Assembly: GCA_949297765.1 (NCBI GenBank)
Contig: CASFTV010000031.1
Span: forward strand, 1 to 39,641
Length of the DNA: 39,641 bases
Reading direction: 5' to 3'
From: an uncultured bacterium
GTDB lineage: Bacteria > Verrucomicrobiota > Lentisphaeria > Victivallales > UBA1829
Positions 1-5,108 of this stretch are shown here, one piece after another. The notes below the pieces were generated by a model that saw nothing but the letters and a program-made list of their open reading frames with translations, had not been told where the DNA came from and did no database searches. How positions within the stretch are numbered: position 1 is the stretch's first letter; every line of letters starts with the position of its first letter. The position numbers and the translations under genes were made by a program.

Positions 1-361
1 ACTCCTGCCAGATACATCTCGATCAGGGCTTCCTCGACGCTGCTTTGCTTCGTCTTGTAACGCTCAATAATCTGCGTTTCAAATGGCAACGTTCTCAGAG
101 ACGGGGAACGTGAAGTTCCACTTCGCCCGCTTTCGTCAGGAGTTTGCGTTTATAGCTTCCGGCCCGCGTATTCTGCCGATCCGGACTGCGCTGATACCTC
201 GAAGCCTGGCAGATCGCGTCAGCTTCCGTATTCAGGAGCGCATTCAGCGTATCCTCGACAGACTGCCGAACCAGTCCGTCAAGATGCGTCCGAATCTCTT
301 TTTCATCGATTTTAATCGCTCCGGAGATTGCCTTTTCATTTTCTTGCGCTACATTTTCCAT
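1..361 (-). pseudogene. IS256-family (mutator-type) transposase, N-terminal part, frameshifted and cut by the window edge
   Basis: The minus-strand frame starts at ATG 361-359 behind an AAGGAAGG ribosome site. It encodes a typical IS256/mutator transposase N-terminus: a helical part, then the family block ending TRAGSYKRKLLTKAGEV and VPRL. After VPRL (about position 95) the frame hits TGA. The reading continues perfectly in another frame as RTLPFETQIIERYKTKQ up to base 1. The lesion looks like a duplicated CT (or loss of one base) in the CTCTGAG stretch. Such transposases are normally made from one uninterrupted frame carrying a DDE catalytic triad. The triad would lie beyond the window, so it cannot be checked. 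The element's outer end probably lies near 410-440, but I could not fix a terminal inverted repeat. The copy is presumably inactive. Confidence 0.85.
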
Positions 362-441
362 GGCCTGTTTTCCTTCCTTTTGAGGTTTGGTCACTATAAT
401 CAATCAGAAAACAGGTCCTTTTTCAAGTGCCCTCTCTCAAA

Positions 442-1270: not shown

Positions 1271-1837
1271 ATGGCGTATACGACGAAGAAATCATTACTG
1301 GAAGCAATACGAAGCGGCGATGAGGTTTCATGGCATGAGTTCTATGAGACCTATCGTCCGCTGATCGTGGTGCGTGGACGGGACTACAAGCTCAATGTTG
1401 CAGAGATCGATGAGCTGGTTCAGTCGGTCATGCTGCGCTTCTTCAAACGGAGTCAGACCTTTCTCTACGACCGCACCAAAGGCAGATTCCGGGACTATCT
1501 CGGCAAGATGATCTATCACTGCGCGATCGACATCATCCACCAGCGGCCCCGAAACCAAGTTGCCTGCGAGGAGGAGGAGATCACGGAACCTGCTCCGGAC
1601 AACGATCGCTGGCGGGAGGAGTGGCACCAGCATATCATGACACAGGCGCTCTCTCAGCTGAAACACCAGCTGGAAGAGGTCACCTACCAGGCTTTTGAAC
1701 TGTATGCGCTCAAAGGAGAATCGCCCCGGAAAGTGGCGGAATTTCTAAAGATCAATGTCAATATGGTCTATGTCGCCAAAAGCCGGGCAATTACCAAACT
1801 CCGGGAGATCGTCAAACAACTGCAGGAGATTGACTGA
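1271..1837 (+). CDS. ECF-type RNA polymerase sigma factor (sigma-70 family)
   Basis: A 188-residue protein with ECF sigma organisation. Region 2 (about residues 10-85) includes EIDELVQSVMLRFFKR and the DYLGKMIYHCAIDIIH helix. Region 4 (about 125-185) has a helix-turn-helix ending NMVYVAKSRAITKLREIV. ECF factors direct core RNA polymerase to a small promoter set and are usually held by a membrane or zinc anti-sigma factor. Here the next gene starts only 2 bases after the stop and encodes an 83-residue protein with the zinc anti-sigma signature. A transmembrane kinase follows. The ATG lies 6 bases after the upstream pseudogene stop and the ribosome site is weak, so translation may have been coupled to the upstream gene. 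The regulon is unknown. Confidence 0.85.
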   Translation: MAYTTKKSLLEAIRSGDEVSWHEFYETYRPLIVVRGRDYKLNVAEIDELVQSVMLRFFKRSQTFLYDRTKGRFRDYLGKMIYHCAIDIIHQRPRNQVACEEEEITEPAPDNDRWREEWHQHIMTQALSQLKHQLEEVTYQAFELYALKGESPRKVAEFLKINVNMVYVAKSRAITKLREIVKQLQEID

Positions 1838-1839
1838 CC

Positions 1840-2091
1840 ATGCATTACAACCGATATGAACTCGATCAGTACCGCACCCGGGCGATGCACTGGCTGCAGC
1901 GGCTCTGCTGCAAACTCCATCTCGCCCATTGCCCCCTCTGCCGGGAAGAACTCGCACAGCTCGAACAGGACGACTGGCTGATCGCGGAACTGCGGAATTC
2001 CCGCCGGAATCTGAATGTCGCTCCGGATCCCGGGGAATACCGCCGTCTCTGCGCGCTCTTTCACGCCGGGAAACGGAAATCCACGGTGTAG
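1840..2091 (+). CDS. Small zinc-binding anti-sigma factor (ZAS-like)
   Basis: An 83-residue protein starting 2 bases after the sigma-factor stop. Residues 27-34 read HLAHCPLC, which fits the HX3CX2C zinc site of ZAS-type anti-sigma factors. These hold ECF sigma factors until a redox or other signal releases them. There is no membrane segment, so it would act in the cytoplasm unless another protein tethers it. The C-terminal half (ELRNSRRNLNVAPDPGEYRR) is charged and short, leaving little room for a sensor domain. The adjacent kinase may supply the signal. The role is inferred from the zinc motif plus position; no longer similarity to a specific family member can be claimed. Confidence 0.7.
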   Translation: MHYNRYELDQYRTRAMHWLQRLCCKLHLAHCPLCREELAQLEQDDWLIAELRNSRRNLNVAPDPGEYRRLCALFHAGKRKSTV

Positions 2092-2106
2092 CAAAGAGAA
2101 ATTCCA

Positions 2107-2134
2107 CCGCACGATCGAATTTTTTCCCGTGCGG
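2107..2134 (+). other. Hairpin between anti-sigma and kinase genes
   Basis: CCGCACG (2107-2113) pairs exactly with CGTGCGG (2128-2134) around an AT-rich loop. It lies in the 66-base gap between the anti-sigma stop and the kinase start. No T-run follows the stem, so it is not a typical terminator. It could reduce or adjust kinase expression relative to the sigma / anti-sigma pair, but this is speculative. Confidence 0.35.
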
Positions 2135-2157
2135 CAGAGAGAGGCGGAAACTGACGG

Positions 2158-3783
2158 ATGATTTCGATTCCCGATTATGAGCTCCTGCGCAAATGCGGCA
2201 GCGGCGCCTACGGCGAGGTGTGGATCGCCCGCAACCGCGCCGGTGCGCTCGTTGCGCTGAAGATCGTCGAGAAATCGGATCAGGTCGCAAGGGAACTCGC
2301 CGGACTGCGGAGCTATTCCCGGATCGCCGACGCCCCGCATCTCATCCGGATTTTCCACATCGGCGAAGCGGCGGGTTCACTTTACTATACGATGGAACTC
2401 GCCGACGACCTCGGCTCCGATACGCTCTACATTCCGGCGACGCTCACCAATCAGCTGATCCGGAAAAAACGGCTCGCCACCGCCGAAACCATCGAACTGG
2501 GGCAGAAACTCCTTCAGGGGCTGGAACTCCTCCATCGGGCCGGCCTCATCCACCGCGACATCAAACCGGACAACATCCTCTATGTCAACGGCGAACCGAA
2601 GCTCTCCGACATCGGTCTCGTCCGTGCGGTCTCGCAGTCGCTGAGTCTGGGCGGCACGCTGGGCTTCATTCCGCCGGAACGGCTGAAATCCGGCTCCAGC
2701 AGCCGGAACAATGCCGATGACCTCTACGCCCTCGGCAAGGTGCTCTACTGCTGCCTCACCGGGAATGAGGTCGACGACTATCCCTCCTTTCCCCAGTCGC
2801 TGCTGAGCGCGGAGTACAGCCGCCTGAACGAGGTGATCCTGACCGCGTGCAGCAGAAACGTTTCGCTGCGCTTCAAGACGGCCGGAGAGTTCCGCCGCGC
2901 GCTGACCGATGGGCTGAGTTCGCGGAAGCGCCTGTGGAACAGGCTCTTTCCGTGGCGCTACGCCGGAATCGGCCTGCTTCTGCTGCTCGCCGCCGGTGTC
3001 TGGATCAGCCGGGATCCCCGGTTCCGCCCGTCGGTCGGCGGAGAGCCGCCGCTGGAGGAGGGGGAAATCCGGAACCGCACCTACTTTTCCGTGGAAACCG
3101 ATGCGAACGATCCCGATGTCGACACCTCGTCGACCGGATATGTCGATCCGGTATTCCGCCGTTTTTCGCCGACGCAGTTGGATTTCGCTCCGCGCCGCCG
3201 CGAGACGGTTTTCCGCCGCTTCGCCGGGAAGGAGTGGGCCTCCATCCACTCCAGCAATTTCCAGCGTTCCGGGGACCAGCTCCGCATCTACGCCAACGCC
3301 GAGGGCGGCATGCGGCTCATGCAGCCGCTGGATTACGCCTACGCGATCCGGTTTGAAATCGATTACGAGAAGCTGGAAGATCTGCTGATCTTTCAGGTCG
3401 CCGCGCTGAACGCCCGGGGAAGCGACCGCGCCTCCTACCGGTGGAGTCTCCTGAAAACGCAGGGAAAACTCACCTTGCAGCCGCTGGAATATCAGGCGGA
3501 AAACGGCGAACGGAAAATCCGGATCAAACCGGTCCGGCAGCCGCTGGACCTCGCCGGATTTCACCGGGTGGAGATGGTGCAGACCTCGAAAATTTTCCGG
3601 CTGTACATCAACGGCGAGCTGGTACTCTACGCGCCAAGCTTCTTCGTGGGCGGCTACTTCACCATTCTCGCCGTGACCGGAAACAGCAGTTTCGTCGAAC
3701 TCAAAAACTTCGAACTGATCAAAATCCTGCACGATCCGGCCTGTCCGCCGGAACAACAATATCAATTGCCGGAGAGGAGATAA
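2158..3783 (+). CDS. Transmembrane Ser/Thr protein kinase with an extracytoplasmic lectin-like domain
   Basis: A 541-residue protein. Residues 1-250 are a Hanks-type kinase: glycine loop GSGAYGEVW near residue 15, lysine in VALKIVEK, catalytic loop HRDIKPDNIL near 131, then SDIGLV where most kinases have DFG, and PPE for APE. The essential lysine and both aspartates are present, so activity is plausible. A basic stretch leads to one membrane helix at about 268-285 (GIGLLLLLAAGVWI). Residues 300-541 lie outside the cytoplasm and have the beta-rich look of a concanavalin/LamG-like fold (FHRVEMVQTSKIFRLYINGELV). Located after a sigma / zinc anti-sigma pair, it probably passes an envelope or glycan signal to that pair by phosphorylation. 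That arrangement is known for kinases near ECF factors in planctomycete-type bacteria; the ligand is unknown. Confidence 0.85.
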   Translation: MISIPDYELLRKCGSGAYGEVWIARNRAGALVALKIVEKSDQVARELAGLRSYSRIADAPHLIRIFHIGEAAGSLYYTMELADDLGSDTLYIPATLTNQLIRKKRLATAETIELGQKLLQGLELLHRAGLIHRDIKPDNILYVNGEPKLSDIGLVRAVSQSLSLGGTLGFIPPERLKSGSSSRNNADDLYALGKVLYCCLTGNEVDDYPSFPQSLLSAEYSRLNEVILTACSRNVSLRFKTAGEFRRALTDGLSSRKRLWNRLFPWRYAGIGLLLLLAAGVWISRDPRFRPSVGGEPPLEEGEIRNRTYFSVETDANDPDVDTSSTGYVDPVFRRFSPTQLDFAPRRRETVFRRFAGKEWASIHSSNFQRSGDQLRIYANAEGGMRLMQPLDYAYAIRFEIDYEKLEDLLIFQVAALNARGSDRASYRWSLLKTQGKLTLQPLEYQAENGERKIRIKPVRQPLDLAGFHRVEMVQTSKIFRLYINGELVLYAPSFFVGGYFTILAVTGNSSFVELKNFELIKILHDPACPPEQQYQLPERR

Positions 3784-3787
3784 CTTC

Positions 3788-3928
3788 ATGAAAATTCTCT
3801 ATATACTGCCGCTGTCGCCGGCGCCGCCCGGCCGCCGCAGTGGGACTCGTAAGCATATTTATGCAGCAAAGAGACTGTTGAGAAGCAATAAGATGAGAAT
3901 GCTGCTGAAAGCACTAATAGGAAAATGA
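3788..3928 (+). pseudogene. Truncated 5' remnant, possibly of a glycosyltransferase gene
   Basis: An ATG 4 bases after the kinase stop, inside the same tight spacing, opens a 46-codon frame. It begins MKILYILPLSPAPPG, which resembles the first beta-strand and glycine-rich loop of GT-B glycosyltransferases. After about 20 residues the sequence becomes AT-rich and basic and stops at 3928. The abrupt change in composition near 3845 suggests the gene was cut by a rearrangement. The alternative is a meaningless short frame: 15 residues of similarity are weak evidence. Confidence 0.35.
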
Positions 3929-4911: not shown

Positions 4912-5108
4912 AACGAAAAACGTTCCATCACTCTCCCCTTACAATAGCATTCTTTCCTCTAAAATTCAAGTTCTCCCCTTTGGAAATCCGCTCCGGAAAG
5001 ATTCCCTAAAACTTTCCTCTCCTCCTTTTCTCCCTCCCTTTTCCCGGAATCGACGAACTTCGACGATCTTTAGAGGTCTAAATCTTTGCGTTTTTCTCAT
5101 TTTTAAAC

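Follow-up and report, generated by a model that had tools for sequence, protein, structure and literature searches.

Introduction

Control of extracytoplasmic function (ECF) sigma factors by phosphorylation is understood for group ECF43, in which the sigma factor itself is the target, and is called open for the other kinase-linked groups (PMC8999054). In ECF43, which includes EcfP/PknT from Vibrio and EcfK/PknS from Xanthomonas, the sigma gene adjoins the gene of a Hanks-type kinase with a variable outer domain, no anti-sigma factor is described, and the acidic residues of region 2.2 (the DAED motif) are typically uncharged, EcfK keeping one of them. A comparable arrangement is analyzed here at positions 1271 to 3783 of a stretch of 39,641 nucleotides (contig CASFTV010000031.1 of assembly GCA_949297765.1, called the window below) from an uncultured bacterium of the Victivallales. 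As in ECF43, an ECF sigma gene adjoins a Hanks kinase gene, but a zinc anti-sigma gene is located between the two and the sigma factor conserves two region 2.2 acids (E45 and E48); functionally the system resembles an ECF switch under kinase control, yet it does not carry the marks of ECF43.

PknB from Mycobacterium tuberculosis is a general kinase that is not known to be encoded with SigH/RshA or SigE/RseA. These two pairs share with the window a soluble zinc anti-sigma factor, and phosphorylation by this Ser/Thr kinase frees their sigma factors (PMC8999054), whereas the kinase of the window system is dedicated, being linked to its partners or, in other genomes, fused to the anti-sigma domain. 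The anti-sigma factor of the window has the zinc motif in the same register as ChrR, RslA and RsiW, together with a helical fold, but it lacks a C-terminal sensor domain or membrane anchor and has only 83 residues in total. Planctomycete and other ECF groups are reportedly encoded beside Ser/Thr kinases (work attributed to Jogler in 2012 and to Casas-Pastor in 2021), and these sigma-kinase gene pairs come partly from the same wider group of phyla. According to PMC8999054, six kinase-associated ECF groups usually have no anti-sigma factor, unlike the window with its zinc anti-sigma gene. A literature search combining Lentisphaerae, extracytoplasmic function and kinase returned nothing, and one combining Victivallis and sigma factor gave a single unrelated match, subscription journals being outside the scope of both.

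Sequences and structure models show that the sigma, anti-sigma and kinase genes (the triad) stay together in several genomes of the Victivallales. We propose an outside-sensing switch in which the kinase would phosphorylate the anti-sigma factor and free the sigma factor, a tentative reading to which we give slightly less than an even chance.

The sigma factor and its zinc anti-sigma factor

The three genes are located on the plus strand in the order sigma, anti-sigma and kinase, separated by 2 and 66 bp, as tightly packed as an initial annotation, made from the sequence alone, had described them. The first gene (1271..1837) codes for a protein of 188 amino acids that contains sigma2 and sigma4 domains only and scores 61.9 bits against the curated family TIGR02937 (cut-off 42.9, E 5e-17), which identifies it as an ECF sigma factor. 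In Pfam, Sigma70_r2 is just over its cut-off (24.6 bits vs 24) and Sigma70_r4_2 is below it (23.3 vs 25.7), and nothing is retrieved from PDB sequences at E 0.001 with this protein as query. Region 2.2 contains E45 and E48 before Q51, and an acid (E/D) is found at position 45 in 21 of 21 triad sigma factors and at position 48 in 20 of them. With these acids in place, binding to RNA polymerase should be possible without phosphorylation of this region, and the sigma factor, unlike EcfP, should be active unless held. T5 and S8 are conserved in all 21 sigma factors, and T4 and T138 in 20. The N-terminal TT was considered as a kinase-specific site and dropped as non-specific, since it is also present in sigma factors of pairs without a kinase. 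Inspection by eye of the 60 to 150 bp upstream of five loci showed no conserved promoter.

The product of the second gene (1840..2091, plus strand; 83 amino acids) had been taken for a minimal zinc anti-sigma factor devoid of a membrane part, and this assignment holds. The motif H27-x3-C31-x2-C34 (1918..1941) is present in all 22 aligned rows, and a simple scan finds no hydrophobic segment. The presumed first zinc ligand, His2 (1843..1845), is located 25 residues before His27, which we take to be about the spacing of the upstream ligand in ChrR, and the profile alignment is in register with this protein; the column contains His in 19 of the 22 rows, Cys in one and a gap in two (at least one of them due to the locus coordinates chosen). 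An additional cysteine, C24, is conserved in 19 of 22 rows. Pfam gives no match up to E 10 and NCBIfam nothing over cut-off; a profile built from 13 relatives places DdvA (E 0.031) and ChrR (E 0.046) on top of the PDB matches, with the zinc residues in register. The structure model (mean pLDDT 86, about 70-76 for the fourth helix) has helices at residues 5-12, 18-30, 32-58 and 64-76, corresponding to the three-helix bundle plus fourth helix of zinc anti-sigma (ZAS) domains. Foldseek returns ECF anti-sigma chains in 14 of 15 rows, none of which reaches E 0.001, and the best VIA-align Z is 6.1, too low for a helical protein to count alone. Each of these scores is weak, yet sequence, motif and predicted fold agree in pointing to a soluble class I zinc anti-sigma factor reduced to its ZAS domain, whose predicted function would be to bind and inhibit the neighbouring sigma factor. 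The anti-sigma gene of one Victivallis metagenome-assembled genome (L100:3151-3402) has no zinc motif and retains the C-terminal part with a Ser-Thr-Val end.

The transmembrane kinase and its ectodomain

The third gene (2158..3783, plus strand) codes for a transmembrane Hanks Ser/Thr kinase of 541 amino acids. Its catalytic region (residues about 7-257; 2176..2928) matches Pkinase (PF00069, E 8e-30), and among 17 aligned sequences K35, E46, HRD, N139 and D151 are invariant and G153 is nearly so, which gives the Lys, Glu, HRD, Asn and DxG expected of a Hanks kinase. DIG in place of DFG and PPE in place of APE, to which the initial annotation had drawn attention, are both real; they are usual in this kinase family and not special to the window protein, and they were ruled out as the mark of an odd or inactive kinase, given the invariant catalytic residues. 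The signature YxPxTL (residues 91-96), before the catalytic loop, is shared by 42 of the 46 kinases of the fetched loci; in the genome of the window, with 14 kinase matches of which six were recovered, it is present in the window kinase and two relatives and absent from three.

Residues 267-285 or so (2956..3012) probably form the only transmembrane segment. They score as most hydrophobic when the scan uses 15 or 17 residues, while a 19-residue window scores residues 488-506, inside the ectodomain, higher (1.79 vs 1.59); in six of the seven other kinases with a similar ectodomain the 19-residue maximum is at the place of this membrane segment, or near it (L125, at 330), L081 being the exception. 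Basic residues just before the membrane segment would place the kinase inside and the C-terminal half outside.

A structure model of the window's ectodomain alone (mean pLDDT 81) is a beta-sandwich (model residues 60-243; 3190..3741, plus strand). VIA-align gives its best Z, 15.4, with 1oq1, a galectin-like Bacillus subtilis protein; the lectin domain of ERGIC-53 follows at about 15 and GH16 glucanases at 13 to 14. Foldseek likewise finds such lectin and glucanase chains. The lectin-like outer half read from the sequence is therefore borne out as a ConA-like lectin/glucanase fold, and the idea that the kinase is the likely sensor gains support. None of the eight sandwich ectodomains matches a Pfam family up to E 1. 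A GH16-type enzyme was considered and rejected: a loose ExDx(x)E, presumably the conserved GH16 catalytic motif, occurs in two of the eight ectodomains (that of the window included) and is not conserved in the other six. The ligand of such a domain would perhaps be a glycan or an envelope fragment.

The outer halves vary among related kinases, eight having the sandwich (by profile) and others ankyrin, TPR or leucine-rich repeats (LRR), while several have an outer half without any Pfam family. A sigma-linked kinase of 1475 amino acids (L111:6747-11174) contains FGE-sulfatase and Laminin_G_3 domains in its outer part.

Conservation of the triad and linkage of its genes

The own genome and 60 relatives (61 genomes) were surveyed by joining the match tables of the three proteins, with a neighbourhood limit of 3.5 kb. 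The kinase search (E 1e-20) gave matches in 37 genomes, the sigma search (E 1e-6) in 51 and the anti-sigma search (E 0.1) in 30, the last being used to E 4e-5, with 15 of its 48 rows (E 7e-4 or weaker) excluded. All eight distinct kinases with the sandwich ectodomain profile adjoin a sigma gene, and 60 of the 69 kinase matches have a sigma match within the limit; the remaining nine, one of them at a contig end beside an anti-sigma gene, do not, so the expected tie of kinase to sigma factor in relatives is complete for the sandwich kinases and partial for the wider family.

An anti-sigma gene is found right downstream of 27 of the 108 sigma matches, and 16 of these 27 pairs, from 13 of the 61 genomes, have a kinase nearby (7 downstream and 9 upstream). 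The conservation anticipated for other Lentisphaerae was thus found, and the three-part arrangement is not a chance one, since the same parts recur together in other genomes, although a minority of genomes, several of them incomplete, contain the full triad. The other sigma matches comprise 34 with a kinase downstream, six with a kinase on the other strand, four with a kinase upstream and 37 with neither kinase nor anti-sigma gene. Among named loci from GTDB genomes, like arrangements occur in Victivallis, Victivallales and Lentisphaeria, plus one Gemmataceae and one Phycisphaerae genome. The genome of the window has a second anti-sigma/kinase pair at a contig end (G000:C29:39934-40988), the sigma gene being presumably off the contig.

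Across 21 triads, pairwise distances correlate between sigma factor and kinase (0.82), sigma and anti-sigma factors (0.81) and anti-sigma factor and kinase (0.63), with a permutation p of 0.0005 in each case (the smallest possible with 2000 permutations), although shared ancestry may give part of this correlation, because the comparison was made without a neutral control gene. As judged from these alignments, sigma factor, anti-sigma factor and kinase domain diverge together while the outer domains are swapped.

Fused anti-sigma/kinase proteins and acidic sigma tails

Gene fusion is the best evidence, drawn from protein sequences, that kinase and anti-sigma domain would work together. In four Phycisphaerae genomes the kinase adjoining the sigma gene has a zinc anti-sigma domain at its N-terminus, with the pattern C, 24 residues, H-x3-C-x2-C, together with a C-terminal hydrophobic anchor and no outer domain. 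A survey of 100 genomes around one Phycisphaerales genome gave matches in 32, and 30 loci, including the original four, were read: the N-terminal zinc anti-sigma domain is present in 23 of these 30 kinase loci (22 by the pattern, and in addition L156, which is the L127 protein). In 21 of the 23 a sigma gene immediately precedes the kinase gene. Fused and free anti-sigma domains match each other in a pairwise profile comparison (A5-A6) with probability 88.9 and E 2.4e-6, and the PDB matches of the fused domain (A6) alone include ChrR, DdvA and RsiW (E 0.06 to 0.7). No fused zinc anti-sigma/kinase was found in literature titles and abstract openings; with subscription journals outside the scope, an earlier description is possible.

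Sigma factors without an anti-sigma gene show another feature. A short acidic C-terminal tail is present in 20 of 26 kinase-linked sigma factors of this kind vs 0 of 34 anti-sigma-linked ones, a contrast whose p value (5e-11) is descriptive only because the tail pattern was picked after viewing the sequences, many of which are from close relatives. The 26 come from 37 sigma rows that lack an anti-sigma gene; the 11 others (three without kinase, one with a degenerate anti-sigma gene, one with a broken kinase gene, four fused and two with the kinase upstream) were dropped, and none of them has the tail. The tail may replace the anti-sigma factor, as an element for docking or for inhibition.

Which protein would the kinase phosphorylate?

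In the proposed switch, the anti-sigma domain would clamp the sigma factor in the resting cell until an outside ligand, perhaps such a glycan or envelope fragment, switched the kinase on; the kinase would then phosphorylate the anti-sigma factor, alone or within the sigma complex, and the phosphorylated protein would let go or be degraded, leaving the sigma factor free to transcribe its genes. The anti-sigma domain is the obvious candidate for the brake and the kinase the sole part of the triad with a predicted outside domain, while linkage in both gene orders, co-divergence and the anti-sigma/kinase fusions all suggest a common task.

Putative phosphorylation sites can be indicated in the anti-sigma factor, picked, like the acidic tail, after viewing the sequences. 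The best Ser/Thr columns of the alignment are occupied in 15 and 12 of 22 rows, the latter at Ser54, which the model places close to the C-terminus of helix 3, ahead of the stretch that connects it with helix 4. In the window, L080, L081, L084, L099 and L100 the last residues, directly after helix 4, are Ser-Thr/Ser-Val/Ile, an end not present in the other anti-sigma factors compared. Helix 4 of class I domains packs on sigma2, over regions 2.1 and 2.2 (PMC7406223). Ser54 and the C-terminal Ser-Thr tail of the closest anti-sigma factors may be regarded as candidates.

Several points weigh against phosphorylation of the anti-sigma factor. No Ser/Thr is universal in this protein, whereas the sigma factor has the invariant T5 and S8. 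Eleven of the 27 sigma/anti-sigma pairs have no nearby kinase match (a remnant in Victivallis vadensis, two pairs near contig ends, G020:C127, G060:C51 and six closely related pairs), so this anti-sigma family does not require an adjoining kinase; 34 of the 108 sigma matches are followed by a kinase gene while no anti-sigma gene is detected, which indicates that such a kinase can act without one. EcfK keeps a region 2.2 acid and is nevertheless phosphorylated, also in the sigma2-sigma4 linker, its T51A variant being functional and T106, in the linker, being important; PknB also phosphorylates SigH itself (PMC13147305). With these two examples, an intact region 2.2 is not decisive against phosphorylation of a sigma factor.

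A serious rival is direct phosphorylation of the sigma factor by the kinase, on the model of EcfP/PknT and EcfK/PknS, with the anti-sigma factor as an additional control in the cytoplasm (through redox or zinc, for example); we consider this unlikely but worth keeping in view. It would correspond to the mode of ECF43, with EcfK and SigH as further precedents (PMC8999054 and PMC13147305), the most conserved Ser/Thr positions of the triad (T5, S8, T4 and T138) are in the sigma factor, and kinase-linked sigma factors without a detected anti-sigma factor are frequent. However, the region 2.2 acids are intact, unlike in EcfP, which weakens EcfP-type activation as the sole requirement, T4/T5 are also present in sigma factors without a nearby kinase, and the fused proteins point to the anti-sigma part.

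It is improbable that the zinc anti-sigma factor is itself the sensor, of cytoplasmic redox or metal, with the kinase a mere neighbour or acting elsewhere. Cytoplasmic class I anti-sigma factors are often redox-sensing and 72 percent of the soluble ones have the zinc motif, which may yet be structural only (PMC7406223); the additional cysteine C24 and the eleven kinase-free pairs would agree with such a sensor, but the kinase is linked in both gene orders, co-diverges and is fused in some genomes.

History and surroundings of the window copy

The window triad resembles that of a Victivallis-type genome from another family (G057; 77, 51 and 73 percent identity for sigma factor, anti-sigma factor and kinase), and reaches at best 49 percent for the sigma factor and 44 percent for the kinase with three genomes of its own genus, whereas for lon, 1.3 kb downstream, the identity is 81-82 percent with two genomes of that genus and 58 percent with G057. 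By blastn, Victivallis loci match the window up to 3770, and from near 5077 onward it resembles G003, of its own genus. Gain of the window copy by horizontal transfer from Victivallis-like bacteria would fit these similarities best.

An apparent remnant of a fourth operon gene, coding for a lipoprotein, follows the kinase gene (3789..3850, plus strand; first codons only, similarity judged by eye). This gene is complete and directly after the kinase gene in L148:8403-9245 and L099:8713-9567, the product matching the lysozyme inhibitor LprI over the cut-off in L148 and below it in L099, whereas the triads of L100, L081 and L082 were not found to have it as a neighbour. The LprI-like lipoprotein is a possible output gene of the switch. 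In V. vadensis DSM 14823 (L108:6034-6653) only truncated sigma and anti-sigma genes remain, with no kinase found beside them, in DNA 93 percent identical to another Victivallis-type genome. Although the break in similarity between 3770 and near 5077, from Victivallis-like triad to own-genus-like lon, the shortened look of the fourth gene and this V. vadensis remnant would suit a transferred fragment that is decaying and has no working output, or a chimeric assembly join, the three window genes are complete open reading frames (ORFs) with conserved motifs, and we regard such an explanation as improbable.

Upstream of the triad, the contig edge carries a fragment of a Mutator-family transposase (95-403, minus strand; PF00872, E 2.6e-16), followed by two overlapping ORFs in different frames (573-1264), possibly one frameshifted membrane protein, for which no counterpart was found in 20 related loci. 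Zinc-ribbon proteins with hydrophobic segments, identified by weak Pfam matches, recur near the triad of several genomes (L148:12014-12658, L100:1408-2481 and L102:9631-11228). Inspection of four of the six closely related kinase-free sigma/anti-sigma pairs placed them close to Tad pilus genes (L149:5840-6651, L152:1195-2006, L153:5490-6068 and L155:6014-6834), the neighbours in L155 being TadE, Tad and a prepilin peptidase by Pfam, which suggests ECF control of the Tad pilus by these pairs.

Implications

The switch proposed here, in which the kinase acts on the anti-sigma factor, could represent a separate kinase-gated ECF class in Lentisphaerota and Planctomycetota, a possibility that we put forward with some reserve: a Hanks kinase would act on a stripped zinc anti-sigma factor (free, with 70-90 residues, or fused), the outer domains would be swapped and, where the anti-sigma factor is missing, an acidic sigma tail would take the kinase contact. 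Free anti-sigma factor, fused anti-sigma domain and acidic tail only would be natural variants of one module, and the target of the kinase is therefore directly testable with small proteins. In the Lentisphaerota, whose regulators have been little studied, the outer domains of these kinases would tie sensing at the cell surface to transcription.

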